From contig JAUNTY010000019.1 of the NCBI GenBank assembly GCA_030538415.1, forward strand, positions 1 to 45,862: a DNA stretch of 45,862 bases, written 5' to 3'. Source of the DNA: Neisseria sp. GTDB taxonomy: Bacteria; Pseudomonadota; Gammaproteobacteria; Burkholderiales; Neisseriaceae. Each line of letters opens with the position of its first letter. Positions within the stretch are counted from its first letter, which is position 1. Below are positions 8,498 through 33,415 of this stretch, in pieces. The translations under genes were made by a program, and so were the position numbers. The notes beneath the pieces are model-generated. The model was not told the origin of the DNA and did not search any database. It worked only from the letters and a program-made list of their open reading frames with translations.

Positions 8498-8510
8498 ACC
8501 CGATGGAATC

Positions 8511-8546
8511 AAACAGGCCGTCTGAAATATTTCAGACGGCCTGTTT
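8511..8546. terminator. DUS inverted-repeat terminator
   Basis: Two DUS copies in opposite orientation form a long hairpin starting AAACAGGCCGTC and ending GGCCTGTTT, 14 bp after the transporter stop. Confidence 0.8.
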
Positions 8547-8553
8547 GATATTT

Positions 8554-8834
8554 AACTCACGTGAGTTCGGGATAAGCATTTAAGATATTCTTATTGTTTT
8601 CATAAACGTATGCACCTCATAGACAGAAAATCGCCAGATTTTCGTCATTCCCGCGCAGGCGGGAATCCAGAAGCCTGACATTTCCGCAATGTTTTCAAAG
8701 TTTCTGAAACCCGACTACTGGATTCCCGCCTGCGCGGGAATGACGAATCCTTACGGATTCTGTCTGCCTCAAGGAGAAATATATTTCTGAAAATCAAAGG
8801 GATTTCACTTGCTTATCCCGAACTCACGTTAACT
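8554..8834. repeat. About 275-bp inverted-repeat element with dRS3 pair inside
   Basis: The ends are ACGTGAGTTCGGGATAAG (8559-8576) and its inverse CTTATCCCGAACTCACGT (about 8812-8829). Inside are two classical dRS3 palindromes at 8647-8666 and 8722-8741 (ATTCCC, 8-nt core, GGGAAT). The same termini bound the elements at 21751-22020 and 36055-36323, whose interiors are unrelated to this one. There is no open reading frame of note. It separates the transporter from the regulator gene. Confidence 0.75.
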
Positions 8835-18600: not shown

Positions 18601-18684
18601 ATTATCAGACGGGTTTTATAATCTGCGGCAGCACCGGTCAGGTGCGCATTGTAGTTTTTTTTAATACAAATGGGAACCAATATT

Positions 18685-20832
18685 GTGAGAAAAACAAATC
18701 GGCTGAGCATTTTATCAGCATTATTATTAGCTGTTCCGGCTGCCGCCTGGGCTGAAACAGTGGCAGACAGCACGGCAACGCTGGATGAAGTAGAGGTAAT
18801 CGGCAAGCGCAATGAAGAATTGAGCGGGCGAACCCACGGCTATACCGCCGACAGCAGCAATGCGGCAGGAAAAGTGAAGGTGCCGCTGAAAGATACTGCG
18901 CAATCCGTATCGGTGGTTACCCGCCAGCAAATTGAAGACCAGCGGCCTGCCAGTATTTCACAAGCATTAAACTATTCGGCAGGGGCGTTTACAGGCCTGG
19001 TGGGGGCGGCCACCCGATATGATTATGTGGGCATGCGCGGTTTCAACGATAATATGACCGATAATATCCTTATCGACGGCCAAAAGCTTTTGAGCGATTC
19101 GAATACTTACAGCGCCATGCAGATAGATCCTTATTTTATCGAACGTATCGATATGCTCAAAGGCCCGGTTTCCGCCACTTACGGCAGGGCGGCGCCGGGT
19201 GGCGCGGTGGCGGCCACAACCAAACGCCCTCTGCACGACAGCTACCATGAAATCAATGTGTTTGGCGGCACCGACAAACAACGCGGCGCCAGCTTCGATT
19301 TGACCGACAATCTGACTGAAAACGGCGATGTGTCCTACCGACTTACCGGCCTTGCCAAAGCATCCGATTCGCAAAATAACAGCCAAAAAAGCCGACGCTT
19401 TGCTGTTGCTCCTTCTTTAAGTTGGAACATCACGCCCGACACCAACCTTCTGCTGCAAGCCTATATTCAAAATGACCCCGACGGCGGTTATCACAGCGGC
19501 TTGCCCGCCAGCGGCACCATCAGCAGCCATGACGGTTTCAAGTTTTCCCGTTCGTTTTCCGATTCAGACCCGGGCGACCGCTTCCGCCGCCGTCAGAATA
19601 TCTACAGCTACCAGCTTCATCACCGGTTCAACGACCGGTGGACGGGAACGTCCAAATTCCGCTCCGCAGAGGTACACACCCGCAACAGGCAAACCTGGCA
19701 GACCGGCTGGCTGGATAATCAAACTTTGTCGCGTGCGGCCGGTAACGCTGCCGAGCATTTGAAATCATTCGCTTTTGATAATTACCTCAACGGCCACTTC
19801 CAAACCGGCTCAGTGCAGCATAATGTATTGCTGGGCAGCGATTACCAGCACCGCAAAACGTTGGCTGATTACAGCTACGATTACACCAATGTCTTGCCGA
19901 TTAATGTGTTGAACCCGGTGTATGGCAGCGGCGATTATCCCTACGGGCAATATGCCAGCAACCGAACCCTGCGCCTGCGCCAATTGGGCTTTTACCTGCA
20001 AGACCAGATGCAATGGCGGCAATGGCATTTCGGCGCGGGCATACGCCGTGATGAAGTGGATACTTCCATTACCGACCGAGACAGCGGCGCGGTTTCCTCC
20101 GATTGGAAAGGCGGTAAAACCACATGGCGCACTTCGGCGCTTTATGCCTTTGACAATGGCATATCTCCCTATATCAGTTACAGCACAGGCTTCAATCCCA
20201 ATACCTATAGCGATGCCGACGGCAAATTATTAAAACCGACCGAAAGCCGGCAATGGGAAGCCGGTGTGAAATACCAAACGCCGGGCAGCCAAAACCTTTA
20301 CACCTTGGCACTATATGATTTGAAACAGAAAAATGTCGCCAACCGGGTGATTAACGGCAACTACTATATCCCCTCCGGCACCGTCAAATCCAAAGGCGTA
20401 GAGCTGGAAGCCCGTACCCAAATCACACCCGAATGGTTTTTGCAGGCGGCGCTTGCCTATAATCGTGCCGAATTTGCCGACAACGTCGAGGGGCTGAACG
20501 GGCATACGCCTTATCAAACCCCCAAGTGGACGGCGTCGTTATGGAGCAATTACCGTTTCAAAAACGGCCTGGATGTCAGCGCGGGCATACGCCATATCAA
20601 CGGCATTTGGGCCGATCATGCCAATACGGTGAAAGTGCCCGCATATACGTTGGTAGATTTGTCTGCCCGTTATCAGCTGGGCGCTTTGAACAGCGCGTTG
20701 AAAGGCTGGCAAACCAGCGTCAGCGTGAATAATGTGTTTGATAAACGCTATGTGGCTTCTTGCGCCGGGCTGACTTATTGCTATTATGGAGAAGGCCGCA
20801 ATGTATTGGCCAATGTATCTTATCGCTGGTAA
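18685..20832 (+). CDS. TonB-dependent siderophore receptor (FhuA/FoxA-like)
   Basis: An outer-membrane gated barrel of about 715 residues that takes up ferric siderophore using TonB energy. A signal peptide ends near AAAWA, a TonB-box-like segment follows (TLDEVEVIGKR), then the plug (VSVVTRQQIEDQRPASISQA, GMRGFNDNMTDNILIDG, RIDMLKGPVSATYG). The beta barrel ends in the aromatic C-terminus VSYRW. The plug pattern fits hydroxamate receptors. I prefer the GTG at 18685, 8 nt after GGGAA; an in-frame ATG at 18670 is also possible. The neighbouring fhuBCD and FhuF-like genes make a complete import route, but no siderophore synthesis gene is present, suggesting use of foreign siderophores. Confidence 0.92.
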   Translation: MRKTNRLSILSALLLAVPAAAWAETVADSTATLDEVEVIGKRNEELSGRTHGYTADSSNAAGKVKVPLKDTAQSVSVVTRQQIEDQRPASISQALNYSAGAFTGLVGAATRYDYVGMRGFNDNMTDNILIDGQKLLSDSNTYSAMQIDPYFIERIDMLKGPVSATYGRAAPGGAVAATTKRPLHDSYHEINVFGGTDKQRGASFDLTDNLTENGDVSYRLTGLAKASDSQNNSQKSRRFAVAPSLSWNITPDTNLLLQAYIQNDPDGGYHSGLPASGTISSHDGFKFSRSFSDSDPGDRFRRRQNIYSYQLHHRFNDRWTGTSKFRSAEVHTRNRQTWQTGWLDNQTLSRAAGNAAEHLKSFAFDNYLNGHFQTGSVQHNVLLGSDYQHRKTLADYSYDYTNVLPINVLNPVYGSGDYPYGQYASNRTLRLRQLGFYLQDQMQWRQWHFGAGIRRDEVDTSITDRDSGAVSSDWKGGKTTWRTSALYAFDNGISPYISYSTGFNPNTYSDADGKLLKPTESRQWEAGVKYQTPGSQNLYTLALYDLKQKNVANRVINGNYYIPSGTVKSKGVELEARTQITPEWFLQAALAYNRAEFADNVEGLNGHTPYQTPKWTASLWSNYRFKNGLDVSAGIRHINGIWADHANTVKVPAYTLVDLSARYQLGALNSALKGWQTSVSVNNVFDKRYVASCAGLTYCYYGEGRNVLANVSYRW

Positions 20833-22272: not shown

Positions 22273-22746
22273 TCAGGCAGACAAGACGCGCGGGAAAAAC
22301 ACATCGTTTTCCAGCGCGATGTGGTCGTGCAAATCATCCACAAATTCCTGCGCCTGGGCATAGAGGCGTTGCCAACTCTGGCAGGCGCCCGCCGGAGCCT
22401 GCAGATTGCCGGTCAGCTCCAGCAGCCGAGCGATGGCCGCTTCGTGTTCGGTGTGCTCGTGCATCATCATCTGAATCGGCATGGCCGCGCCGGAGCCTGC
22501 GCCCTGGTTAATCATCGGAAACAGCACGCGCTCTTCTTTCATCATGTGGTTGAGCAATTCCGCCTGAATGCCTTGCAGCAGCGGCAAAACTTCAACCGGA
22601 AAGCTGCCCGCGTGCACAACGGACACTTTTTCAGCCAGCGGGATCAGCTCGGCCAGTTGCTGGCGGTGCACATCGTGGTAGCGTTGCTGGATGTGGTCGA
22701 TGGTGGCATCAAAAGGGGCTTGCTGCCATACGGTAAAATCGGTCAT
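22273..22746 (-). CDS. hemerythrin-domain protein, RIC (YtfE/DnrN)-like
   Basis: A 157-residue di-iron protein. It aligns by eye with the C-terminal hemerythrin domain of YtfE/ScdA/DnrN, the repair-of-iron-centres proteins used against nitric oxide and oxidative damage. It has IDHIQQRYHDVHRQQL, LNHMMKEERVLFPMI, MMMHEHTEHEAAI and LHDHIALENDVFFPR, supplying the His/Glu ligands. It lacks the N-terminal ScdA domain with the CCG-type cysteines, so it is shorter than the full family (about 220). A palindrome like an NsrR site lies upstream, consistent with nitrosative-stress control. Confidence 0.85.
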   Translation of the reverse strand: MTDFTVWQQAPFDATIDHIQQRYHDVHRQQLAELIPLAEKVSVVHAGSFPVEVLPLLQGIQAELLNHMMKEERVLFPMINQGAGSGAAMPIQMMMHEHTEHEAAIARLLELTGNLQAPAGACQSWQRLYAQAQEFVDDLHDHIALENDVFFPRVLSA

Positions 22747-23119: not shown

Positions 23120-24430
23120 CTAAAACAACAACATGTTTATTTTTTCAAGCCTCGCCTGTTCGCCAAACAAACCGGTACTGTGCAGCAATTGCAGGTAAGC
23201 CTGTGCGTGATTGTATTGGGCTTCGGCCAGTTGCTGCTCTGCTTCGGATTTGGTCTGTTGCGCCTGCACCGCTTCCAGGCTGTTGCGTATGCCCACTTCC
23301 TTGCCCAGCCGGGTGGCTTCCAATCGTGCATCGGCCGTATCCAAAAGACGTTGTTGCGCCAGAATCTGGATTTTGCTGCTGTGGCTGTTGAGATAAGCCT
23401 GTTTTACCGCCAGTTGCGTCTGCCGTTCTGCATTCTGCAGCAATGCCCGGTTTTGGGCAACGCGGGCGGCGGCTTCCCGCGCAAGGCTGGCCGTTTGGCC
23501 GCCGCTGTATAAAGGCATGCTCAATTGCAGCGTCACCGTCGCCCCTTTGCTGCGGTATTTTTGCGGATCTGCACCATATTCGCGGGTGCTGTGGTTATCC
23601 TGATAGCCGCCGTTGAGCGTAAGGCGGGGCAAATGGCTGCCTTTGGCGGCGGCAAGTGCCGCTTCGGCATTTTTGAGCGCTGTTTTTTGCAACCGCCATG
23701 CGCGGTTGTGTTGTGCGGCCAGTTGCTGCCAGTACTCTTCCCGGGTTTGCTCCAGCAAATCCGGTATGGCGGATTTCCGGAGCGGGCGGATGCCTGCAGG
23801 GTTCAGGCCGGTCAGGTCGGCCAGCGTATTTTCTGCAACCTGCAATTGAATGGCCGTGTCGATTTCTTTGGCCAAGGCCGCATCATAGCCTGCCCGGGCT
23901 TCATAAGTGTCGATAATGGTGGCTGCGCCTTGCTTGAACATGGCTTGCGCCTGCCTGATTTGCTGGGCATAGGCGCTTTTCTCATCCCGGATGGCGGCCA
24001 ATTTGTCTTTGTTCAGCAAAACGTCAAAATAAGCCTGCGCCACACTCAGGCGCAATTCATCTGCGCTGTTATCCAGCCGGATATCCGCCATTTCTTCGGC
24101 CAGCCTGCCCTGCCGGTATTGGGCAAAGCGGCTTTTGTCAAACAAAATCTGGCTGGCCTGCACATTCCAGCCGTGGCTTTTGGTGTTGGTAGAAAGCGAA
24201 TAGGGCTGCTTTTGATACACCGCATTGGCGCTCAGCTGTGGCAGCAATGCCGCCCGTGCCTGATGTTTCTGCTCCGCCTCGGCATCGCGGTTGTGTTTGG
24301 CGGCGGCATAGGCTGGCGAATAAGCCAGCGCGGCCTGCCAGGCTTCGGATAAATCAAAAGCAGAGGCCGTCTGAAAAAGAGCTGCCGATTTTAAAACCAA
24401 CAAGAATAAGAATCGAAAAATGCCAATCAA
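23120..24430 (-). CDS. TolC-like outer membrane efflux protein
   Basis: A 436-residue outer-membrane channel subunit. A signal peptide (FLFLLVLKSAALFQTASA) is followed by two OEP repeats of the TolC family, with DLSEAWQAALAYSPAYAAAK at the start, a second helical repeat from about residue 225, and YLNSHSSKIQILAQQRLLDT near 345. The only sensible start is TTG at 24430. It is divergent from the cupin-bacteriocin unit and lies next to HlyD and ABC exporter genes. It most likely completes a dedicated type I secretion channel, although it could also serve a drug pump. Confidence 0.88.
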   Translation of the reverse strand: MIGIFRFLFLLVLKSAALFQTASAFDLSEAWQAALAYSPAYAAAKHNRDAEAEQKHQARAALLPQLSANAVYQKQPYSLSTNTKSHGWNVQASQILFDKSRFAQYRQGRLAEEMADIRLDNSADELRLSVAQAYFDVLLNKDKLAAIRDEKSAYAQQIRQAQAMFKQGAATIIDTYEARAGYDAALAKEIDTAIQLQVAENTLADLTGLNPAGIRPLRKSAIPDLLEQTREEYWQQLAAQHNRAWRLQKTALKNAEAALAAAKGSHLPRLTLNGGYQDNHSTREYGADPQKYRSKGATVTLQLSMPLYSGGQTASLAREAAARVAQNRALLQNAERQTQLAVKQAYLNSHSSKIQILAQQRLLDTADARLEATRLGKEVGIRNSLEAVQAQQTKSEAEQQLAEAQYNHAQAYLQLLHSTGLFGEQARLEKINMLLF

Positions 24431-24514
24431 TACGCTGAATTATTATGATATGAAAGTAATTTGGGATTAAATTGCAATTAATATTCAAAATTATTAATTG
24501 AATAAAATTGATTC

Positions 24515-24528
24515 TTGATATAAATCAA
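24515..24528. promoter_or_regulatory. Perfect FNR-type box between tolC-like and cupin genes
   Basis: TTGATATAAATCAA fits the FNR/CRP-type consensus TTGAT-N4-ATCAA at every defined position. It lies in the AT-rich divergent promoter region 24431-24636, upstream of -10-like TATAAC/TAAAGA stretches that lead to the cupin gene. This suggests oxygen-responsive expression of the bacteriocin island. Confidence 0.5.
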
Positions 24529-24636
24529 ATCCATTTGTAATATAACACAAATTGTAAAGAAATTAAGAATCATTTTTGATATTGGTCAGCAGTTACCTGC
24601 TTATTTTTTCAAACGTTTACTGAGGAGCCTATCGGG

Positions 24637-25788
24637 ATGCATCTGGATTTCAATATTTCACAAGCAGCGTTTCATCGTGATTATCTTTATCAAAAGCCAC
24701 TGCTATTCAAAAATGCGGTCAAGGAAATCAATATCGGCTGGAAAGAAATCAACGAGCTTTACCAGCGTGCCAACCCGATGGATCACCAATTCAAATTCCG
24801 CAAAGGGCCGCCGATTCCGAAAGAGGCCTATGTGGAAGCCTTTAACGACGTAGGCCGCACCCGCTACCGCTTCAACAAGGCAGCTGTTTATCAATATCTG
24901 CAAGAAGGGGCGACGCTGGTTTACAACCGCATCAACAATGAGCCTTTTGTCGATGATATTGCCAAGCAGGTGGCTCAATTTGCCCGGGCACAAACCGTGG
25001 TCAGCAGCTATCTGGCTTTTGGCGATGCACCTTCCTATAAAAATCATTGGGATACCCGCGATGTCTATGCCGTGCAACTGATGGGCAAAAAGCATTGGAG
25101 CCTTTCCGCCCCCAATTTCGAGATGCCGCTTTATATGCAGCAAGCCAAGGATATGCCGCATATACAGCCTCCGGAAAAAGCCGATATGGAAGTGGTGCTC
25201 GAAGCGGGCGATGTGTTGTATATCCCGCGCGGCTGGTGGCACAACCCCGTGCCGATGGGCTGCGAAACCTTTCATCTGGCCATCGGCACCTTTCCGCCAA
25301 ACGGCTACAACTATCTGGAATGGCTGCTGAAAAAAGCGCCCGAAATCGCCAGCCTGCGCCACAGTTTTCAAGGCCGGGATGCGGATGAGGGCAATATCCG
25401 CGATATGGCGCAGCAAGTGGCCGAGCTGATTGCCAGCCCCGATCATTACGACAGCTTTGTGCAGGCATTTCTCGGCGATGTGCGCACGGACACGCCTTTT
25501 GCGATGGAGCTGTTTGGCAACCCGAATGCAGACGGCCTGCCCGACCATGCCTTATTGCGCCTAAATACGATGGATTTATCCACGCTGGCAAACGGATTTG
25601 TGATTGCCAACGGCATCAAAATCAACACCGATGCAGACAGCAGTGTCGCGTTTGAAAAGTTGGCCAAGCAGGATAAAACCCGGTTAAGCGAGTTGCTGGA
25701 GGGTTGCGATGTCGGGCAACAGGCGAAAATCAGAGCGTTGCTGATGCAGTTGGGGGCATTGGATGCGGTGGAGGTTTTTAGAGAATAG
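24637..25788 (+). CDS. JmjC/cupin-type 2-oxoglutarate oxygenase (RoxA-like)
   Basis: A 383-residue protein of the cupin_4/JmjC family, related in architecture to bacterial RoxA (YcfD), a ribosomal-protein arginine hydroxylase. The predicted Fe(II) triad is His137, Asp139 (NHWDTRD) and His202 (RGWWHNPVP). A C-terminal winged-helix-like part (about residues 275-383) follows. GAGGAG precedes the ATG. It is the first gene of the plus-strand bacteriocin island. Its location suggests it may hydroxylate the secreted peptides, but a general RoxA role cannot be excluded. The last about 55 codons recur as fragments at 26526 and 27266. Confidence 0.85.
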   Translation: MHLDFNISQAAFHRDYLYQKPLLFKNAVKEINIGWKEINELYQRANPMDHQFKFRKGPPIPKEAYVEAFNDVGRTRYRFNKAAVYQYLQEGATLVYNRINNEPFVDDIAKQVAQFARAQTVVSSYLAFGDAPSYKNHWDTRDVYAVQLMGKKHWSLSAPNFEMPLYMQQAKDMPHIQPPEKADMEVVLEAGDVLYIPRGWWHNPVPMGCETFHLAIGTFPPNGYNYLEWLLKKAPEIASLRHSFQGRDADEGNIRDMAQQVAELIASPDHYDSFVQAFLGDVRTDTPFAMELFGNPNADGLPDHALLRLNTMDLSTLANGFVIANGIKINTDADSSVAFEKLAKQDKTRLSELLEGCDVGQQAKIRALLMQLGALDAVEVFRE

Positions 25789-25845
25789 CGCAGCACAAAT
25801 ATTTGGATATTCAGAAATATATGATTAACGAAAGTAAGAGGTTTT

Positions 25846-26019
25846 ATGGCATTTAATTTAAGTATTATTTTTTTTGGCAGTTTTTTGTTCCTTGTTTTTT
25901 TTGGAAAATTTTTTGATTTGGAAGAAGAGTTTGAGCAAAAGCGTGGTGTTAGTATCAGGTGGCTGTTTGCGATTCTGGCTGCCGCATTTACTGGTGTGAT
26001 ATACCTGATTTATAGTTGA
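25846..26019 (+). CDS. 57-residue membrane protein, candidate immunity protein (copy 1)
   Basis: The product starts MAFNLSIIFFGS and has two hydrophobic segments (about 5-20 and 39-56) separated by an acidic/basic loop (DLEEEFEQKRG). AAGAGG precedes the ATG. Size, topology and position between the oxygenase and a bacteriocin precursor fit a bacteriocin self-immunity protein. A near-identical copy lies at 28608-28781, a broken one at 28404-28576 and a stub at 26750-26791. I know of no named family for it. The function is inferred from context only. Confidence 0.65.
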   Translation: MAFNLSIIFFGSFLFLVFFGKFFDLEEEFEQKRGVSIRWLFAILAAAFTGVIYLIYS

Positions 26020-26070
26020 TATAAATAATAAATAACATTTCATTTTAAATTGAAAATAAAGGAATATATT

Positions 26071-26433
26071 ATGCGTCAATTAGATATTAAAGATTTGGAA
26101 ATCGTAACAGGAGCCGTTGGTGTTCCAGGTGCGGTTGTTGGAGCAGTAACAGGTTTAGCAGCCTATGCGGGAAATGCAAGTACAGGACCAAATGGGTGGG
26201 ACTGGGTTGATGCAACAATGGCTGTTGGGATTGGGGCTGCTGTTGGTGCGGTGACCGGTCCTGTTGGCGCGAATCGTGCTGTTCATGCTATTGGTCTGTC
26301 TGGAACTGCCGGGGTTATATCCGGGGGTGTTCAAAGTGTACGGACAGGAACGGTTACATTGGGACCAGTAACGTCAACGCAAGTAGCAGACCCATCAGGT
26401 AATGATTATTGCGATGACGGCACGGACTACTAA
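26071..26433 (+). CDS. class II bacteriocin/microcin precursor 1
   Basis: A 120-residue secreted peptide precursor. The leader MRQLDIKDLEIVTGA is the 15-residue double-glycine type recognised by C39-peptidase exporters (compare colicin V, MRTLTLNELDSVSGG), with GA at the cleavage point. The core of about 105 residues is rich in Gly, Ala and Val with small-residue repeats (VGAVTG, GAAVGAVTG), as in membrane-active class II peptides. It ends with the polar tail PSGNDYCDDGTDY. AAGGA lies 6 nt before the ATG at 26071; an upstream in-frame ATG at 26050 would destroy the leader. A 13-bp stem hairpin follows. Confidence 0.85.
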   Translation: MRQLDIKDLEIVTGAVGVPGAVVGAVTGLAAYAGNASTGPNGWDWVDATMAVGIGAAVGAVTGPVGANRAVHAIGLSGTAGVISGGVQSVRTGTVTLGPVTSTQVADPSGNDYCDDGTDY

Positions 26434-26477
26434 TCCAAATACTGTTGATATTCTGGACGATTAAGGCAGGTTTTAAA

Positions 26478-26515
26478 AAAGAGCATGATTTGCTTCAATG
26501 CCAATCATGTTCTTT
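26478..26515 (+). terminator. Hairpin after precursor 1
   Basis: The arms AAAGAGCATGATT (26478-26490) and AATCATGTTCTTT (26503-26515) pair over 13 bp with one G-U. It lies 45 bp after the precursor stop and may end transcription or stabilise the precursor message relative to the genes that follow. Confidence 0.6.
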
Positions 26516-26525
26516 CGGTGTGCAG

Positions 26526-26692
26526 TGAATACCGATGCAGACAGCAGTGTCGCGTTTGAAAAGTTAGGCAAGCGGGATAAAACCCGGTTAAGCGAGTTGC
26601 TGGAGGGTTGCGATGCCGGGCAGCAGGCGAAAATCAGGGCTTTGCTGATGCAGTTGGGGGCATTGGATGTGCTGGAGGCTTTTAAAGAATAA
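26526..26692 (+). pseudogene. Duplicated 3' fragment of the cupin oxygenase gene (copy 2)
   Basis: It reads VNTDADSSVAFEKL through to KE-stop, about 90 percent identical to the last 55 residues of the oxygenase at 24637-25788. The match continues about 60 bp past the stop into the leader of a truncated MAFNL gene. It has no start of its own that would make a known domain. It marks the end of a duplicated cassette. Confidence 0.85.
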
Positions 26693-26749
26693 CGCCACAG
26701 AAATATTTGGATATTCAGAAATATATGATTAACGAAAACTGGAGGTTTT

Positions 26750-26791
26750 ATGGCATTTAATTTAGGTACTCCGTCTTACTGGAGCTTGTAG
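26750..26791 (+). pseudogene. Truncated start of a MAFNL-type immunity gene
   Basis: GGAGG precedes an ATG encoding MAFNLG, then the sequence departs from the 57-residue family and stops after 13 residues. The upstream 60 bp match the region before the intact copy at 25846, so this is a recombination stub. Confidence 0.7.
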
Positions 26792-26809
26792 CTAATGTGG
26801 AGCCAGATT

Positions 26810-27049
26810 ATGAAACAGGAGTCAACATTAAAAAAAATCATACTTTTAATAATTGTTTTTATAACTTTTTATCTTGTACTTTCATTTTTTCTTTTTATTT
26901 TAAAAACTTTTTTGATAGATCAATTAGATACTGAAATTTATCAAGTTTTATATGATTATTCAGCTGTATTTTCTAGCGTTGTGACATGGGGACTGATTGA
27001 AGGAAGCCTTAAAATTTTTAAATTTGCCAGAAGGAGAAAGGAGCAATGA
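26810..27049 (+). CDS. 79-residue membrane protein, candidate immunity protein
   Basis: Starts MKQESTLKKIILLI and has one long hydrophobic stretch near residues 8-30, a second weaker one near 50-65, and a basic tail ARRRKEQ. GGAGCC sits 5 nt before the ATG at 26810; an in-frame ATG at 26795 is less well placed. Its stop overlaps the start of the orphan leader peptide (ATGA), so the two are translationally coupled. I do not recognise the family. Pairing with a precursor-like gene fits a bacteriocin-immunity pair. Confidence 0.6.
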   Translation: MKQESTLKKIILLIIVFITFYLVLSFFLFILKTFLIDQLDTEIYQVLYDYSAVFSSVVTWGLIEGSLKIFKFARRRKEQ

Positions 27050-27153
27050 AAGAAATGACCATTCGTGAGTTGGAATTGATTGTCGATAACATGAGAAGTA
27101 TTCCTCAAATTATCCGATCATCCTCTACCATTGTTAAGCAAGCATTCAGATAA
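27046..27153 (+). CDS. Orphan leader peptide: degenerate bacteriocin precursor
   Basis: A 35-residue product. Its first 15 residues, MKEMTIRELELIVDN, line up position for position with the two intact leaders, but DN replaces the Gly-Gly/Gly-Ala. The remaining 20 residues (MRSIPQIIRSSSTIVKQAFR) lack the Gly/Ala-rich core. A strong AAAGGAG lies just upstream. It could be a decayed precursor, or a short peptide no longer processed. Farther on, a broken frame at about 27217-27285 shows a Gly/Thr/Val-rich GTAVTGSVGKTG, possibly its lost core. Confidence 0.55.
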   Translation: MKEMTIRELELIVDNMRSIPQIIRSSSTIVKQAFR

Positions 27154-27265
27154 AGCCTGTGCTGTAACCGACAGAGGCGTACGCATAGTTGAAAATTATT
27201 TGAGTGGTGTGCGGAAATGATTGTACCAAGGTTGATAGGAACCGCAGTAACTGGTTCCGTGGGGA

Positions 27266-27396
27266 AAACTGGGCAAGCGGGATAAAACCCGATTAAACGA
27301 GTTGCCGGAGGATTGCAATACCAGGCAGCAGGCAAAAAATCAGGGCTTTGCTGATGCAGTTGGGGGCATTGGATATGGTGGAGGTTTTTGGATAAA
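27266..27396 (+). pseudogene. Duplicated 3' fragment of the cupin oxygenase gene (copy 3), frameshifted
   Basis: The DNA from GCAAGCGGGATAAAACCCG onward matches the oxygenase 3' end, with several substitutions and an extra A in a poly-A run that shifts the frame. It is more diverged than copy 2. The match ends at the oxygenase stop region, just before the next immunity-type gene. Confidence 0.75.
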
Positions 27397-27457
27397 AGGA
27401 GATGCGTATGCAGAGATTTTGATTAATCCAGGAAAGGATAAGGAGGCTTAAAAAAAG

Positions 27458-27661
27458 ATGAATAAATTATTCCATAAGAAGATGCTTAAAAAAGGAATAC
27501 TTTTTATTTCAGTGGTTGTTAGCGTGACATTGGTTGATAAATATATGGTTTCCCCTTTTATTGACCATGCTTTCTTTCGGGAAAATAGTTTTTATTTTTT
27601 TGTGTTTGTGTTCCCGGTGGCTTCCTTTCTTTTCAGTAAGCTAAAAAAATTTTCCATTTAG
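27458..27661 (+). CDS. 67-residue membrane protein, candidate immunity protein
   Basis: Starts MNKLFHKKMLKKG, with two hydrophobic segments (about 14-28 and 44-58) and basic ends. AAGGAGG lies 11 nt before the ATG. It directly precedes precursor 2 by 35 bp and is probably its partner. A frameshifted relative, sharing LVDKY and ENSFY positions, is at 29135-29346. The role is inferred from size, topology and position. Confidence 0.65.
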   Translation: MNKLFHKKMLKKGILFISVVVSVTLVDKYMVSPFIDHAFFRENSFYFFVFVFPVASFLFSKLKKFSI

Positions 27662-27696
27662 ACAGTAATGATACTGATGATATATAGGAGAAAATC

Positions 27697-28053
27697 ATGT
27701 ATGAATTATCTATTTCTGATATGAGCATTGTGGTTGGTGGTTCGGGAGCAGGAAAGGGAGCGCAGGGGGCTGTTACTGGCATGGGCGCCTATGCGATGGG
27801 GCAAACTGTCAGGGGTGAGGAGATTACAGCAGCAGGTTTGGTAGGGGCTGGATTGGGCGGTGCTATTGGTTCTTCAAGTACCCATAGTGTCATGTTTGGG
27901 GCTGCTGCAGGAGCTGCTGCAGAAAGAGGAGCCAATTATATTGGAAATCAATTAGATGCCAATCCGGTAAATATAGGCCCGGGACTAATGACATTACCAG
28001 ATTCAACCATGCCACCACTTATGCAAGACCAATCCGGTAATGATTATGGGTAG
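27697..28053 (+). CDS. class II bacteriocin/microcin precursor 2
   Basis: A 118-residue precursor with the canonical 15-residue leader MYELSISDMSIVVGG (Gly-Gly cleavage site). It is followed by a Gly/Ala-rich core (GAGKGAQGAVTGMGAYAMG, AGLVGAGLGGAIGSS, FGAAAGAAAERGA) and a C-terminal tail QDQSGNDYG. The core differs from precursor 1, but the tail motif SGNDY is shared. TAGGAG precedes the ATG. The peptide should be exported and trimmed by the C39 ABC exporter at 31285. A long hairpin follows at 28091-28145. Confidence 0.87.
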   Translation: MYELSISDMSIVVGGSGAGKGAQGAVTGMGAYAMGQTVRGEEITAAGLVGAGLGGAIGSSSTHSVMFGAAAGAAAERGANYIGNQLDANPVNIGPGLMTLPDSTMPPLMQDQSGNDYG

Positions 28054-28090
28054 CATGGTTAAAATTGTTTTAATTACCTTTTGACTTGAT

Positions 28091-28145
28091 AACAGTTCAG
28101 ACCTTTTAGGCTTGAATTTTTAGCCTGGAAATGGTTTGAACTGTT
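28091..28145 (+). terminator. Long hairpin after precursor 2
   Basis: The outer arms AACAGTTCAGACC and GGTTTGAACTGTT pair over 13 positions (one G-U), with an inner AGGCT/AGCCT stem. It lies 38 bp after the precursor stop. No long U run follows, so attenuation or mRNA protection is as likely as full termination. Confidence 0.6.
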
Positions 28146-28213
28146 TCTGGAAAGATTGGAATTGGTCAATTTTAAATATACTTAAAAATTTAAAAAGAGG
28201 ATGCTCGTATAAT

Positions 28214-28387
28214 ATGTATATATTATTAATTGGTGTTTCTCTAGTAATATTTATAATGATTTTAGTTAAATTGAATCTGATTGAAATAGCCAAGGAAAAA
28301 AATAAAAAATTACTTATCTTTAAATTATTCTTCGGCATTATTTTGCTTGTTATGCTCGCAATAAAATTTCAGCAATATTCCAATTGA
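28214..28387 (+). CDS. 57-residue membrane protein, candidate immunity protein
   Basis: Starts MYILLIGVSLVIFIM, with hydrophobic segments at about 2-20 and 36-51 and a basic loop (EKNKKLL) between. Its length and topology equal those of the MAFNL family, but sequence similarity is not clear. It sits right after precursor 2 and its hairpin. An in-frame ATG at 28136 overlaps the hairpin and is unlikely. The ribosome site is weak (AGAGGA about 13 nt upstream). Confidence 0.55.
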   Translation: MYILLIGVSLVIFIMILVKLNLIEIAKEKNKKLLIFKLFFGIILLVMLAIKFQQYSN

Positions 28388-28403
28388 AAATATAGAGATA
28401 TTT

Positions 28404-28576
28404 ATGAAATTTAATTTGGTCATTATCTTTTTTGGAACTTGTTTTGCACTTTATTTTTTTGCAAAGCTTTTAATTTTGGAGAAGGATTTAAAGAACGGCA
28501 TGGTATCAGCATCAGGTGATTGTTTGTCGCGATAGCAGTCATATTTACGGGAATAATATATTTAATTTATGGTTAA
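28404..28576 (+). pseudogene. Broken copy of the MAFNL-type immunity gene (copy 3)
   Basis: Begins MKFNLVIIFFGT and follows the family until ILEKDLKN, where a one-base shift leads to a stop. In the other frame HGISIR, a TGA in place of a TGG tryptophan codon, and VIFTGIIYLIYG continue the family. Two lesions make slip-reversible phase variation unlikely. Confidence 0.75.
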
Positions 28577-28607
28577 GCCGACATGGTGAATAATAATCGG
28601 GGGATTT

Positions 28608-28781
28608 ATGGCATTTAATTTATGTATTATTTTTTTTGGCAGTTTTTTATGCCTTGTTCTCATCTGCAAATTTTTTGATTTGGAAGAAGAGTTTGAGCAA
28701 AAGCGCGGTGTCAGTATCAGATGGTTATTTATGTTGCTGGCAGGGGCTTTTACTGGTGCGATATATCTTATTTATAGTTAG
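28608..28781 (+). CDS. 57-residue membrane protein, candidate immunity protein (copy 4)
   Basis: The product (MAFNLCIIFFGS start, EQKRGVSIRWLF loop, IYLIYS end) differs from the copy at 25846 in only about eight residues. It has two membrane segments. A GGGG stretch lies 5-8 nt before the ATG. No precursor lies next to it, so it may provide immunity to a peptide encoded by a lost or unlinked cassette, or reinforce immunity to precursor 1. Confidence 0.65.
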   Translation: MAFNLCIIFFGSFLCLVLICKFFDLEEEFEQKRGVSIRWLFMLLAGAFTGAIYLIYS

Positions 28782-28849
28782 AAAAAGGATAAACCTTGTT
28801 TGTATCAATCTGAAAAATAATTGCATCGCGGGAGAGCCGTGTCGCTCAT

Positions 28850-29068
28850 ATGAAACTTAATTTAGATAATTTTATAAAGCGGTGGAAGCTCCTGCTTCTT
28901 TTAATAATAACAACCCAGTTGACTTTTAACTTGCTGTTTTATTTTTTGGATATTAATGAAATTGTAATCAATCTGCGGCTGTTTAATGTTTCGGTTGATG
29001 CCAATAATATCAGCAGTTTGCTTACGGTCATTATCTTTTTTTCTTATTTGCATTATAAAAAAGAATAG
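28850..29068 (+). CDS. 72-residue membrane protein, candidate immunity protein
   Basis: Starts MKLNLDNFIKRWKLLLLL and ends YLHYKKE, with two hydrophobic segments (about 13-32 and 53-68). It resembles the 66-residue product at 30988-31188 at both ends: FIKRWKLLLL against AVKNWKALLL, and FLYLHFKKE against FSYLHYKKE. The ribosome site is weak. No precursor is adjacent. The function is unknown beyond the contextual immunity guess. Confidence 0.55.
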   Translation: MKLNLDNFIKRWKLLLLLIITTQLTFNLLFYFLDINEIVINLRLFNVSVDANNISSLLTVIIFFSYLHYKKE

Positions 29069-29134
29069 TGTTTTTTTGCAGATCGGATATTGCTGTGTTG
29101 GTTTTAAATCTGAAAGAAGATTATTTTAAAAATC

Positions 29135-29346
29135 ATGAATAAGTTCATTATTTTGCAAATGCTGAAAAAAATCATGCTGATTATTATCGTGTTCAGCTTT
29201 TTGGGTTGGTTGATAAATATATTCTGAAAAAATTGATTGATAACCCATTTTTTCAGGAAAACAGTTTTTATATTTTTATCCTTCCTGCCGGTTATTTGCT
29301 TATCTGGAAATTGGTGAAAAGGTTTAGGTTAGACGATGAAGTTTGA
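29135..29346 (+). pseudogene. Frameshifted relative of the 67-residue immunity-type gene
   Basis: MNKFIILQMLKKIMLI reads to a stop at about residue 30. In the next frame VDKYILKKLIDNPFFQENSF continues the pattern of the gene at 27458-27661 (VDKY, FF.ENSFY). A single extra base in the TTTTTGGGTTGG tract explains the break. Confidence 0.75.
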
Positions 29347-29352
29347 GCGGGC

Positions 29353-29605
29353 ATGAAAGATTTATTTTGGCAGATAAAAAATCAATTATTTCCTGATATT
29401 TATAGCGGCAGGTATTGCTTCTGCCTTTCTGTTGAGGCTGGTTGCCGTGTTTTTGCTGCCTGTGAATGTAATGCTGCTGATGTGTAGGCATCTTACCTGG
29501 AAGAAATTTTCAAATCGGATGATGAGGAATAACCGGGCTTTTCCTGTTTTACCGGAAAATTGCTTCAATCAAAGAAAAAAAATTAAAAAATCTTTTTGTT
29601 ATTAA
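29353..29605 (+). pseudogene. Frameshifted small membrane protein gene
   Basis: MKDLFWQIK then leaves frame at a run of six A. With one A fewer the frame continues as INYFLIFIAAGIASAFLLRL and on for about 80 residues in total, including a strong membrane segment and a basic tail. It could be an inactive immunity-type gene, or one switched by poly-A slippage. I do not recognise the family. Confidence 0.5.
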
Positions 29606-29629
29606 AACTTTACTCAGTGAAATATTGCC

Positions 29630-30907
29630 ATGACTGATTCGCGCGAATCTTTTTTCCGCCCCGAAGTATTTGAAGCCAAAAAACACCAATGGACAGGCCG
29701 GATTGTATTGACCCGCCCGTTTTCATTCGTGTTTCTCACTTGGTGCGCGGCGGCTGTGGCGGCGGTGTTGGTATTGTTTGCCTTTTTCGGCAGTTATACC
29801 CGTAAAACCACGGTAGAGGGGCAGCTTTTGCCGGTATCGGGTCTGGTTAAGGTTTATGCGCCGGATATGGGCATTATCAGCGGCAAGAATTTTGCCGATG
29901 GTGATTTTGTACATGAGGGTGATGAGCTGTTTACGCTTTCGACCAGCCGCTACAACAGCGGCGGCGATATCCAGTCGCGGCTGGCGGCGGAAGCGGCCTT
30001 GAAGAAAACCTTGCTGTTGCAGGAAATGGGGCAGATGCAGCGGGTGCATGAGGGTGACGAGCGCGCATTGCGCAGCAGCATTGCCAAGCTGCAAAGCCAG
30101 CTGGGTGATGTCCGGCAGCAGTTGGCCGGGCAGGGGCGGCGGGTAAAGCTGGCAGAGCAGGTATTGGAAAAATACCGGCCTTTGCTGCAACAGGGTTTTA
30201 TTTCAGAGCAGCAGATGATGGGTTATGAGGGCGATTATCTGGATCAGCTATCGCGGCTGGATGCGCTGAAGCGGGAAAAAGCGGGTATCGAGCGCGAAAT
30301 CGGCGAGCGGCAAATCAGCCTGAAAAGCCTGCCTGAGCGCCAGCAAACGGAATTAAGCCAGCTTAACCGGGCGATTTCGGGGGTTAACCAAGAGGTGTTG
30401 GATTGGGATTTGAAGCAGCGGCAAAGCATACGCGCGAGCAAATCGGGCTATGTCAGCACTTCCAATGTCGAGGTCGGCCAGCAGGTGGATCCGGGCAGGC
30501 TGCTGCTGAGCATTGTGCCGAAAGATGCCGAGCTGATGGCGAATCTTTATGTGCCCAGCCGCGCTATCGGTTTTATCAAACCTGAAGACAAAGTGGTGTT
30601 GCGTTATCAGGCTTATCCGTATCAGAAATTCGGCCACGCGGAGGGCGAGATTGTGTCGGTGGCGAAAACAGCTTTGGGCAAACAGGAATTGGCGGGTTTG
30701 GGGATTATTTTTGCGGATGCGGCGCTTTTGAACGAGCCTGCCTATTTAATCAAGGTGAAGCTCGGCAAACAGAGCATTCGGGTTTACGGGGAAGAAAAGC
30801 CGTTGCAAATCGGCATGATTCTGGAAGCGGATGTGTTGCATGAGCGCAAGCGGCTTTATGAATGGATATTGGATCCGCTTTACAGTATTTCGGGGAAGTT
30901 GAATTGA
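29630..30907 (+). CDS. HlyD/CvaA-family type I secretion adaptor
   Basis: A 425-residue periplasmic adaptor linking the ABC exporter to the outer-membrane channel. It has a cytoplasmic N-terminus, one membrane segment (about 29-52), a biotinyl/lipoyl-like half-motif (GQLLPVSGLVKVYAP), and a long coiled-coil region (about 115-250). The second lipoyl half (IRASKSGYVSTSNVEVGQQV) and a C-terminal HlyD domain follow. It resembles CvaA of colicin V export. Base composition rises again to that of the core genome from here on. It is separated from the ABC gene by a small immunity-type gene. Confidence 0.9.
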   Translation: MTDSRESFFRPEVFEAKKHQWTGRIVLTRPFSFVFLTWCAAAVAAVLVLFAFFGSYTRKTTVEGQLLPVSGLVKVYAPDMGIISGKNFADGDFVHEGDELFTLSTSRYNSGGDIQSRLAAEAALKKTLLLQEMGQMQRVHEGDERALRSSIAKLQSQLGDVRQQLAGQGRRVKLAEQVLEKYRPLLQQGFISEQQMMGYEGDYLDQLSRLDALKREKAGIEREIGERQISLKSLPERQQTELSQLNRAISGVNQEVLDWDLKQRQSIRASKSGYVSTSNVEVGQQVDPGRLLLSIVPKDAELMANLYVPSRAIGFIKPEDKVVLRYQAYPYQKFGHAEGEIVSVAKTALGKQELAGLGIIFADAALLNEPAYLIKVKLGKQSIRVYGEEKPLQIGMILEADVLHERKRLYEWILDPLYSISGKLN

Positions 30908-30933
30908 GGGCAGATGGTTCTTATGGAGGAGAT

Positions 30934-30990
30934 TATGGAAAATAAAAAAATGGAGACGACTATGCTCATTAAATCATTAGGAAAGATATG
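30934..30990 (+). CDS. Possible 18-residue peptide ORF
   Basis: GGAGGA precedes an ATG encoding MENKKMETTMLIKSLGKI, whose stop overlaps the next start (ATGA). It may be a remnant of a leader or simply a translational coupler. Support is weak. Confidence 0.25.
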
Positions 30991-31188
30991 AAAATAACCT
31001 TAAATAATGCGGTTAAAAATTGGAAGGCTTTGTTATTGATTATTTTAGCCGTCCAAACGCTGATGCTGTTGTTATACACAATAGCAGGCATTAAAGAGGT
31101 ATTTTCTTTTTCTTATTCTGATCTGAGTTCTTTAATTAGTGCGCCTGTATTTTTTCTCTATCTCCATTTTAAAAAAGAGGATGCTTGA
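30988..31188 (+). CDS. 66-residue membrane protein, candidate immunity protein
   Basis: Starts MKITLNNAVKNWKALLLI and ends FLYLHFKKEDA, with two hydrophobic segments (about 13-30 and 50-60). It is a relative of the 72-residue product at 28850. It lies between the HlyD adaptor and the ABC exporter, an ordinary place for an immunity gene in class II clusters. A DUS hairpin at 31222-31246 follows. Confidence 0.55.
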   Translation: MKITLNNAVKNWKALLLIILAVQTLMLLLYTIAGIKEVFSFSYSDLSSLISAPVFFLYLHFKKEDA

Positions 31189-31221
31189 CGGCTTTACTTG
31201 CAAATAGCGCAATATTCAATC

Positions 31222-31246
31222 AGGCCGTCTGAATTTCAGACGGCCT
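31222..31246. terminator. DUS inverted pair inside the secretion operon
   Basis: AGGCCGTCTGAA is followed directly by its reverse complement, giving a tight hairpin 38 bp before the ABC exporter start. It may partly terminate transcription and also serve DNA uptake. Confidence 0.55.
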
Positions 31247-31284
31247 TTATAAAATCATACAACGACATTATCAAGAGGAAGCAA

Positions 31285-33381
31285 ATGGACTACTTATCCC
31301 GTCTCTCTTTCGGTTTCGGCAAAAAGCTGCCGGTTGTGCTGCAAACCGAGGTGGCAGAGTGCGGCTTGGCTTGTTTGGCTTCGATTTTGAGCTACCACGG
31401 CCATCATACTGATTTGCGCACTTTGCGGCAGAAATACCCGCTTTCGTTGAAAGGGGCGAATCTGGCGCATATTGTGCACTTTGCCAATGGCATGAACCTG
31501 ACTTCCAGAGCGTTGCGGCTGGAATTGCACGAGCTGGCCAATCTGAAGCTGCCCTGCATCCTGCATTGGGATTTGAATCATTTTGTGGTGTTGCAAGCGG
31601 TGGGCAAAGATGCGGCAACAATCATGGATCCGGCCGTGGGTTTGCGCAAGGTGCGGCTGGAGGAGGTGTCGCGCAAGTTTACCGGCGTGGCATTGGAGCT
31701 GTGGCCGAATACGCATTTTGAAGAGAAAGAGGAAAAACAGAAAATCAAGGTGTTGCCACTGCTGAAAGGGGTGAGCGGCATCAAGCGCTCGCTGGTGCAG
31801 GTGTTGGCGTTGGCGGGGGCATTGGAGGTGTTTGCGCTGGTCAGCCCTTTTTTTATGCAATGGGTGATTGACCATGTGATTGTGACTGCCGACCGCAATT
31901 TGCTGACCACTTTGGTGTTGGGCTTCGGCTTGCTGATGATTGTGCAGCAGCTGATTAGTCTGCTGCAATCGTGGGTGGGCATGCATTTGGCAACGACATT
32001 GAATATCCAATGGAAAGCCAATGTGTTCAAACGTTTGCTGTCTTTGCCGAGCGATTTTTTTCAAAAAAGGCATTTGGGCGATATTGTGTCGCGCTTCGGC
32101 TCGATTGACAGTATTCAGGGTACGCTCACTTCGACGTTTTTTGTGGTGATTTTAAATGGCGTGATGGCGGTATTCACGTTTGCGCTGATGTTTTTATACA
32201 GCCCGCAGTTATCAATAATTGTATTGGTGACGCTGGGCTTGTATATCCTGATTCGCTGGTTGGCCTATTACCCGCTGAGAAATGCAACGGAAGAGAACAT
32301 TATCCATGCGGCCAAACAGAGCTCGTATTTTATGGAAACCGTGCGCGGCATCCATACGGTCAAACTTTTCCGCAAAAACGAACAACGCCACGGGGCGTGG
32401 ATGAGCCTGTTTGTGGATACGGTCAATACGGGGCTGACCACGCAAAAGCTGTCGGTGCTGTTTGGGTTTGCCAATAAACTGCTGTTCTGCATTGAGGGCG
32501 TGTTGATTATTTATTTGGGCGCGCTCAATATTCTGGACGGCTTGTTTACCGTGGGCGTGTTGATGGCTTTTTTGGCCTATAAAAGCCAGTTTGAAGGTCG
32601 CGTGGGTGCATTGGTCGATCAGTATGTGCAAATCAAAATGCTGGGGCTGCATGCGGAGCGGCTGGCCGACATCACTTTGATGGAAAACGAATCAGATCGC
32701 AGCGAAGAGGCTTATATGCCGGAATGCGGCGAAGAGATTGAGATTGTGGTGGAAAATGTGGCTTTTCGCTATGCCGAGAGCGAACCTTGGGTGTTGCAGG
32801 GCGTGAATCTGAATATCCGGCAGGGAGAATCGGTGGCGCTGGTGGGCAGCTCCGGCTGCGGCAAATCTACCCTGATGCATATTTTAATCGGCAATTTGAA
32901 ACCGGAATCGGGCAAAGTATCGGTGAACGGGCATGATATCCACAAGCTGCATCCTGATTTCATACGGAGCTTAAGCGGCACGGTTACCCAAGATGATGTG
33001 TTGTTTTCGGGCTCTATCAGCGAAAATATCAGCTTTTTCGATGAAACACCCGATCCGCATCAAGTGGAACAATGCGCACGGATGGCAATGATACATGAAG
33101 AAATCAGCAAGATGCCGATGGGCTATGAAACGCTGATTGGCGATATGGGCAGCGCGCTGTCAGGCGGGCAAAAGCAGCGGATTATTTTGGCGCGGGCGCT
33201 GTATCGCAAGCCAAAAATCCTGTTTTTGGATGAGGCAACCAGCCATTTGGATACGGCCAATGAAAAGGCAGTCAACGATAATTTAAAGGCTTTGAATGTC
33301 TGCAAAATCATGGTGGCGCACCGCAAGGAAACGATTGATTCCGCTGATAGGGTGGTTAATCTGGAAACGGCTTTTGCGTAA
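31285..33381 (+). CDS. Peptidase-containing ABC exporter (C39 family, CvaB-like)
   Basis: A 698-residue bacteriocin-processing exporter. The N-terminal C39 protease (1-140) has the catalytic set Cys26 (QTEVAECGLACL), His99 (DLNHFVVL) and Asp115 (IMDPAVG), so it should cleave double-glycine leaders. A six-helix ABC membrane domain follows (about 165-440). The nucleotide-binding domain has GSSGCGKST, LSGGQKQR and ILFLDEATSHLD. AGAGGAAG lies just before the ATG at 31285; the frame is open farther upstream through the DUS hairpin, which is unlikely to be translated. With the HlyD and TolC-like proteins it forms a full type I route for precursors 1 and 2. Confidence 0.95.
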   Translation: MDYLSRLSFGFGKKLPVVLQTEVAECGLACLASILSYHGHHTDLRTLRQKYPLSLKGANLAHIVHFANGMNLTSRALRLELHELANLKLPCILHWDLNHFVVLQAVGKDAATIMDPAVGLRKVRLEEVSRKFTGVALELWPNTHFEEKEEKQKIKVLPLLKGVSGIKRSLVQVLALAGALEVFALVSPFFMQWVIDHVIVTADRNLLTTLVLGFGLLMIVQQLISLLQSWVGMHLATTLNIQWKANVFKRLLSLPSDFFQKRHLGDIVSRFGSIDSIQGTLTSTFFVVILNGVMAVFTFALMFLYSPQLSIIVLVTLGLYILIRWLAYYPLRNATEENIIHAAKQSSYFMETVRGIHTVKLFRKNEQRHGAWMSLFVDTVNTGLTTQKLSVLFGFANKLLFCIEGVLIIYLGALNILDGLFTVGVLMAFLAYKSQFEGRVGALVDQYVQIKMLGLHAERLADITLMENESDRSEEAYMPECGEEIEIVVENVAFRYAESEPWVLQGVNLNIRQGESVALVGSSGCGKSTLMHILIGNLKPESGKVSVNGHDIHKLHPDFIRSLSGTVTQDDVLFSGSISENISFFDETPDPHQVEQCARMAMIHEEISKMPMGYETLIGDMGSALSGGQKQRIILARALYRKPKILFLDEATSHLDTANEKAVNDNLKALNVCKIMVAHRKETIDSADRVVNLETAFA

Positions 33382-33383
33382 GG

Positions 33384-33415
33384 CAGGCCGTCTGAAAAAG
33401 TTTTCAGACGGCCTG
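33384..33415. terminator. DUS inverted-repeat terminator after the ABC exporter
   Basis: CAGGCCGTCTGAAAA and its inverse form a hairpin three bases after the exporter stop, closing the bacteriocin island. Confidence 0.85.

Follow-up and report, generated by a model that had tools for sequence, protein, structure and literature searches.

A JmjC oxygenase gene heads a double-glycine peptide export island in Neisseria and goes together with a tag on candidate bacteriocin precursors

Results

Positions 23,120 to 33,415 of a 45,862-nucleotide contig of Neisseria sp. (JAUNTY010000019.1, assembly GCA_030538415.1; the whole analysed stretch is referred to herein as the window) hold a well-supported double-glycine peptide export island in which precursor genes are paired with genes for small membrane proteins (Table 1). 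A sequence-only reading of this DNA had proposed a complete class II microcin island, and all of the parts that it named were found within these positions. While the export island and its pairs stood, the filing under class II is doubtful, since a JmjC oxygenase gene that this reading had overlooked opens the operon, and since the oxygenase and a short precursor tag go together across genera.

The two predicted precursors, P1 and P2, both carry leaders of 15 residues as described, with the difference that the P1 leader ends in Gly-Ala (GA) rather than Gly-Gly (GG). P1 is best started at the ATG at 26071, giving 120 aa with a core of 105 aa, and P2 comprises 118 aa with a core of 103 aa, in agreement with the core lengths given before. 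The unmodified cores have masses of 9902 and 9871 Da (both approximately 9.9 kDa), within the class II microcin size limit of about 10 kDa. Neither precursor had a Pfam match up to E = 1, and in NCBIfam a longer P1 frame alone gave one meaningless match (E 0.64), making family scans of the precursors unusable; an AlphaFold model of P1 had a mean predicted local distance difference test score of 43 and was not used. A precursor with a leader beside a putative modifying-enzyme gene, as seen here, is the layout of a ribosomally synthesised and post-translationally modified peptide (RiPP). Judged from their sequences, the peptides are best explained as small, glycine-rich, secreted peptides of the bacteriocin type.

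The exporter, adaptor and channel genes matched their expected families. The exporter is best started at the ATG at 31285, a TTG frame from 31198 giving 727 aa, and the reported Cys-His-Asp set was recovered, with Cys26 and Cys30 (the candidate catalytic Cys), His99 and Asp115 lying in the expected C39 motifs. Using a relaxed 17-residue window for hydrophobic segments, six of the nine small open reading frames (ORFs) encode two segments (25846-26019, 26795-27049, 27458-27661, 28214-28387, 28608-28781 and 28850-29068), in keeping with the at least five intact two-helix proteins claimed, and three encode one only (28404-28535, 29206-29346 and 30988-31188). The cassette region (25789-29629) has a GC content of 0.364 against 0.572 and 0.575 in the flanks, and is thus AT-richer than both sides (36% vs 57% GC), as had been noted.

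Table 1. Predicted features of the island, with positions in the window.
Feature	Position	Strand	Remarks
TolC-type outer-membrane channel	23120..24430	-	PF02321 3e-57; TIGR01844 1e-64, slightly below cutoff; divergent from operon
JmjC_2 / ROXA-like 2-oxoglutarate Fe(II) oxygenase, 383 aa	24637..25788	+	HxD...H = H137, D139, H202
Slot-1 small two-helix membrane protein, 57 aa, candidate immunity protein	25846..26019	+	G046 homologue in same place, 44%
Precursor P1, leader MRQLDIKDLEIVTGA, C-terminal tag DPSGNDYCDDGTDY	26071..26433	+	G046 precursor 78% identical
Oxygenase-gene 3' fragment, matches residues 329-383, head of second cassette	26498..26692	+	Repeat family D2/D3/D4; 84-85% identical to window oxygenase
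Small membrane protein, 84 aa	26795..27049	+	36% to G046 L138:6180-6449
Decayed precursor start, reads MKEMTIRELELIV...	27047..27154	+	By eye, resembles start of G046 precursor L138:6682-7059
Second oxygenase 3' fragment, head of third cassette	27258..27398	+	D3 83%, D4 89%
Small two-helix membrane protein, 67 aa, P2 partner	27458..27661	+	46% to protein preceding P2 homologue in G037
Precursor P2, leader MYELSISDMSIVVGG, C-terminal tag DQSGNDYG	27697..28053	+	61% to G037 L141:6767-7156
Small membrane proteins, run	28214..29068	+	Intact: 28214-28387, 28608-28781, 28850-29068; shortened copy: 28404-28535; repeat family D1
Short ORF, 46 aa, resembles part of 67-aa protein	29206..29346	+	50% over 40 residues
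HlyD-type periplasmic adaptor	29630..30907	+	PF13437 1e-15; TIGR01843 5e-37, below cutoff
Small membrane protein, 66 aa	30988..31188	+	Homologues in L139, L142
C39 peptidase-ABC exporter, 698 aa	31285..33381	+	PF03412 (Peptidase_C39) 4e-35; PF00664 (ABC_membrane); PF00005 (ABC_tran)

The oxygenase has a fold of the RoxA/NO66 type, for which the nearest solved folds are ribosomal-protein hydroxylases, and its HxD...H triad is invariant in 18 of 18 oxygenases. We rejected its identification as the housekeeping RoxA, as its operon position, the fragments of it in the cassettes and its rarity speak against this. Matches were found in 12 of 83 Neisseriaceae genomes, all in the genus of the window and eight with a full-length gene, while a class-wide search of 369 sampled genomes at E ≤ 1e-40 returned the window's own genome only, and 16 of 299 Moraxellaceae genomes matched, some of them already known. 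HlyD matches occurred in 16 of the 83 Neisseriaceae genomes at 1e-20. Among 80 named HlyD relatives, the oxygenase was present in 12 loci (three Neisseria, three Moraxella, two Psychrobacter, three Acinetobacter and one Delftia), and one locus, L085, holds two oxygenase genes. HlyD lies downstream of the oxygenase in all eight Neisseria loci with a full-length gene (one HlyD is split) and in 7/10 Moraxellaceae loci found via the oxygenase.

Two locus types could be distinguished in Neisseria. Type A, comprising an oxygenase, precursor cassettes, HlyD and usually the ABC exporter, is found in the window and in genomes G046, G051, G037, G020, G028, G023 and G012; the ABC gene was not found in G012 and is a fragment only in G028. 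Type B, comprising TolC, many short GG peptides, HlyD and the ABC exporter but no oxygenase, is found in G048, G014, G030, G019, G029 and G016 and at a second locus of G051. The type B locus of G019 (L149, 4604-9993) contains more than 10 short ORFs with GG leaders, a rich set of candidate peptides.

After inspecting several Neisseria precursors, we wrote a strict tag pattern, D-x-[SAT]-G-x-x-Y (D.[SAT]G..Y), whose most constant letters are Gly and Tyr. Among the 45 cores of the 27 oxygenase-positive loci, 24 had the strict tag; shuffling the same cores 1000 times gave 0.36 on average and never more than 3. Counted per locus and leaving the window out, it was present in 16/26 oxygenase-positive versus 2/31 oxygenase-negative loci with a precursor (L059 and L110; p = 9e-6, Fisher test), only 31 of the 74 negative loci having a precursor; a relaxed tag was present in 19/26 versus 4/31, with relaxed-tag loci without the oxygenase including L146, L147, L103 and L113. 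Median core length was 96 versus 42 in Neisseria without the oxygenase, a difference that is allowed for by the shuffles but not by the Fisher test. Per precursor, an earlier count with another leader pattern gave 21/44 positive versus 1/92 negative precursors, and a second count, stricter in leader length and looser at residue 4, gave 24/45 versus 2/57. L187, a copy of L045, was dropped from the tag counts. Across all 27 positive loci, 17 have the strict tag and five the relaxed tag only (L046, L062, L077, L186 and L190), while in three (L081, L143 and L144) the strict tag lies in another frame just downstream, so that their precursors look frameshifted.

The tag sits at the C terminus in Neisseria precursors, and in five Moraxellaceae loci (L087, L183, L184, L188 and L189) it follows the leader, either immediately or after a few residues; L188 has four precursors that share the tag but differ in the cores that come after it. 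A motif that keeps its letters while switching ends would be behaving as a recognition or modification site. In G051, which carries both locus types, the strict tag occurs in 2/4 precursors of the oxygenase locus and 0/3 of the other.

We also placed the oxygenase on an HlyD tree of 44 loci (20 of the 27 positive and 24 of the 74 negative loci). The oxygenase label requires five changes on this tree, at least four of them forced by well-supported branches, which suggests several joint gains or losses of oxygenase and tag. The window and G046 group with an oxygenase-free Neisseria set, with support of 87/79 only, and an Acinetobacter rudis locus (L047) inside the oxygenase-positive Acinetobacter group is without the oxygenase and has a single, untagged precursor. 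In the sequences compared, ancestry alone does not explain the association of tag and oxygenase.

Behind the full oxygenase gene, the window contains repeats of its 3' end at 26528-26768 (91%) and 27258-27398 (83-89%); behind each come a small membrane protein and then a precursor, which in one case has decayed. G051 has two longer 3' pieces (about 205 aa) ahead of further pairs. One is 100% identical to the full oxygenase gene over about 600 nt, while the other diverges; this second piece precedes a pair formed by a 75-aa protein and a MIELQL precursor, and its C terminus is 53-54% identical to the oxygenases of G028 and G023 but 29% to the full gene of its own genome. In G028 and G023, that same pair lies directly behind the full oxygenase gene (slot 1). 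Likewise, the P2 pair lies behind a fragment in the window and directly behind the full gene in G037. Small membrane proteins and precursor families are thus paired in a conserved manner.

The full-length genes diverge at the same end. Those of G037 and G020 share 83-99% identity in each 100 nt over some 1000 nt, falling to 54-66% in the last 150 nt and below 50% beyond, and over all pairs of eight oxygenase genes mean identity declines from 72-79% at residues 61-240 to 28.5% at residues 341-383. A payload-matched fragment, in the one case open to this comparison, together with divergent gene ends indicates that the end of the oxygenase gene belongs to the payload; this end may be a recombination arm only, or may fit the enzyme to its peptide. 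The payload units, each made up of an oxygenase 3' end, a small membrane protein and a tagged precursor, thus appear to behave as exchangeable cassettes, with a comparative signature of recombination between partial and full oxygenase copies. No fragment was found when the six remaining Neisseria loci with full-length genes (L138 and L141-L145) were searched, and cassette arrays are therefore not universal.

Three further observations concern the surroundings of these genes. A perfect FNR-type palindrome, TTGATATAAATCAA, lies at 24515-24528 between the TolC gene and the oxygenase, and is the sole perfect match in the window; the site is not conserved: a similarly placed copy in G046 has one mismatch, and it was not seen in most other loci. 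The DNA uptake sequence AGGCCGTCTGAA occurs in 46 copies in the window, of which 24430-31280 holds only one inverted pair (31222/31235), as expected for recently acquired DNA. To the left of the island lie a TonB-dependent receptor gene (18670-20832) and a hemerythrin-domain protein gene (22273-22746, minus strand).

Discussion

We lean, with some confidence, towards a reading in which the island makes tagged bacteriocin-type peptides that are hydroxylated by the oxygenase, exported by the C39-ABC system, matched by immunity partners and exchanged as cassettes. The tagged precursor would most likely be hydroxylated by the JmjC oxygenase in the cytoplasm, before export, as a cytoplasmic location is expected of the oxygenase. 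The C39 domain of the exporter would then cut behind GA or GG, the peptide would leave via HlyD and TolC, and the paired small membrane proteins would most likely confer self-immunity. Cassettes would recombine with the full-length oxygenase gene, so that one expressed peptide could be replaced by another along with its immunity, a scheme already proposed for the tps and maf islands. The parts, the tag-oxygenase association, the cassette layout and the recombination signature can be read from sequence; we infer the hydroxylation and its target residue, the immunity and the killing of relatives. The sequence-only reading had also seen an antibacterial weapon in the island, which is plausible.

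Several observations weigh against this reading. The link between tag and oxygenase is an association in sequence, weaker than a substrate test, and since the loci are related and the oxygenase label is clustered on the HlyD tree (0/500 shuffles as low), the p values overstate independence. The strict tag is missing from 21 of the 45 cores (some have relaxed variants and some are probably spurious ORFs), and neither Arg nor His, which RoxA and NO66 hydroxylate, is an invariant part of the tag. L144, an oxygenase-positive locus, has an additional, intact but untagged precursor at 8341-8688, between HlyD and ABC. Two of the 27 positive loci, L044 and L045, are without the tag, their four precursors ending in another common tail, SEDGD, and their oxygenases are the most divergent (29-31%). 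Exporter parts are broken or missing in L143, L145, L181, L182, L186 and L189, so that the export system appears to be often lost in relatives, and the GG peptides of the nap island are described in the available text of PMC11798529 as being without detectable antibacterial activity and as having a role in autolysis. As separate observations, the tail of the L144 precursor is Cys-rich (NCQCGEDCHCDPCNC), and L044 and L045 (Acinetobacter, 7.9-8.5 kb) combine a divergent oxygenase with SEDGDG/SEDGDE tails, perhaps as a second enzyme-tag pair.

The leaders, exporter and peptide sizes would also fit plain class II microcins, in which case the peptides would be unmodified, the tag would have a part in export, in stability or in binding to a receptor, and the oxygenase would target a ribosomal protein, as its nearest solved folds do, or an immunity protein or something else. 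We consider this unlikely, as the tag accompanies the oxygenase in different exporter lineages and is rare or lacking in loci of the same exporter family that have no oxygenase, and as the oxygenase 3' end travels with payloads; the peptides are probably chemically modified. That the system is instead a decaying relic, with little transcription and leftover copies, its repeats and fragments reflecting degeneration rather than a cassette system, seems very unlikely to us: the window does contain pieces of the oxygenase gene, small ORFs that are shortened and the decayed remains of a third precursor, and several relatives have broken exporter parts, but oxygenase, P1, P2, HlyD, ABC and TolC are all open with intact active-site motifs, and payload-matched oxygenase fragments recur in another genome (G051).

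It is also improbable that the peptides are signals or act on the producer's own kin rather than on competitors, although a pheromone role for meningococcal GG peptides is offered in the part of PMC2784325 available and the Nap peptides act in autolysis (PMC11798529, in part). Toxin/immunity diversification accounts better for cassette exchange and for loci that contain several dissimilar precursors, each accompanied by a small membrane protein of its own. Moreover, the Naps have 16-36 residues and use NapP and NapF with no ABC exporter, as far as that text goes, and growth inhibition by a meningococcus was lost when NMB0097 or NMB0098 was deleted, according to the available portion of PMC9263626.

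Taken by itself, the export island is of a known kind; what is new is the combination of oxygenase, tag and cassette layout. Our literature search, which covered mainly work other than subscription papers and preprints, did not find a JmjC oxygenase and double-glycine exported bacteriocins joined in print. The nearest relatives in layout are meningococcal. N. meningitidis 8013 has two such secretion units with GG/GA peptides, put forward in 2009 as bacteriocin or pheromone (PMC2784325, in part), and meningocin islands are covered in the accessible parts of PMC8627216 and PMC9072670. These units (NMB0097/NMB0098; NMV_0104-0106 and NMV_1948/1949) share, as partly available descriptions have it, a C39-ABC exporter, an adaptor and glycine-rich peptides with GG/GA leaders. 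The words cupin, JmjC and oxygenase are absent from PMC2784325, and the likeness to NMB0097/0098 is by description; G023 and the similar G028, compared with the meningococcal units, carry an oxygenase locus. Killing and immunity are reported as proven, in the text available from PMC2761928, for Mcb of Moraxella catarrhalis (mcbABCI), which is alike in its HlyD-family McbA, CvaB-like McbB, GG precursor McbC and small immunity protein McbI. It differs in being a four-gene operon, and the word cupin is absent from PMC2761928.

Colicin V, or microcin V, is alike in its 15-residue double-glycine leader, C39-ABC exporter, adaptor and TolC, and we take the leaders in the window to resemble the colicin V pattern, as had been suggested. 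It has no JmjC oxygenase, tag or cassette layout, and matches to MccV were limited to a weak, sub-threshold one in one relative (L046, E 0.12). Class II microcins are either unmodified (IIa) or carry a C-terminal siderophore (IIb). The window has the double-glycine leader, C39-ABC exporter, adaptor and TolC of this class, with P1 ending in GA, but the oxygenase in the operon and its association with the tag suggest a modification of another sort.

For enzyme and precursor together, the closest parallel is the biphenomycin RiPPs, in which a JmjC/cupin hydroxylase (BipG/PbsQ) is encoded beside the precursor and was shown to hydroxylate it (PMC12707348 and PMC12257519, both in part); there, however, ornithine is hydroxylated after other enzymes have acted, and the precursors, protease and exporter are others. 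The cassettes recall the tps/maf polymorphic toxin islands, where, in the available text of PMC9263626, partial copies bearing toxin and immunity cassettes lie behind a full-length gene. Partial copies with payload and an immunity-like gene behind the full gene are found in the window and G051, with the difference that the 3' end serving as the recombining arm belongs to a putative modifying enzyme instead of a toxin. The nap island is likewise an AT-rich Neisseria island with GG peptides, but has NapP and the FapF-like NapF, with no ABC exporter, adaptor or oxygenase described in the part of PMC11798529 available. In the window, the C39 domain is fused to the ABC exporter rather than being a free peptidase, and no FapF-like family was found among the window genes scanned.

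A more tentative extension, which we regard as doubtful, is that these peptides form a new class of modified microcins. The oxygenase would hydroxylate the Asp/Asn or Tyr of the tag, creating a receptor handle, possibly an iron-binding one, that lets unlike toxic cores enter relatives, and its cassette-borne C-terminal domain would match the enzyme to the payload. Beta-hydroxyaspartate occurs as an iron binder in siderophores.

For Neisseria, in which the genes of a proposed meningococcal bacteriocin were unidentified and no bacteriocin had been characterised, as far as the available text of PMC9263626 states, the island provides specific precursors, candidate partners in immunity and a putative modifying enzyme. 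If the reading we favour is true, naturally competent mucosal bacteria exchange cassettes that encode modified peptide weapons, and the enzyme with its tag could serve as a small, portable peptide-modifying tool.

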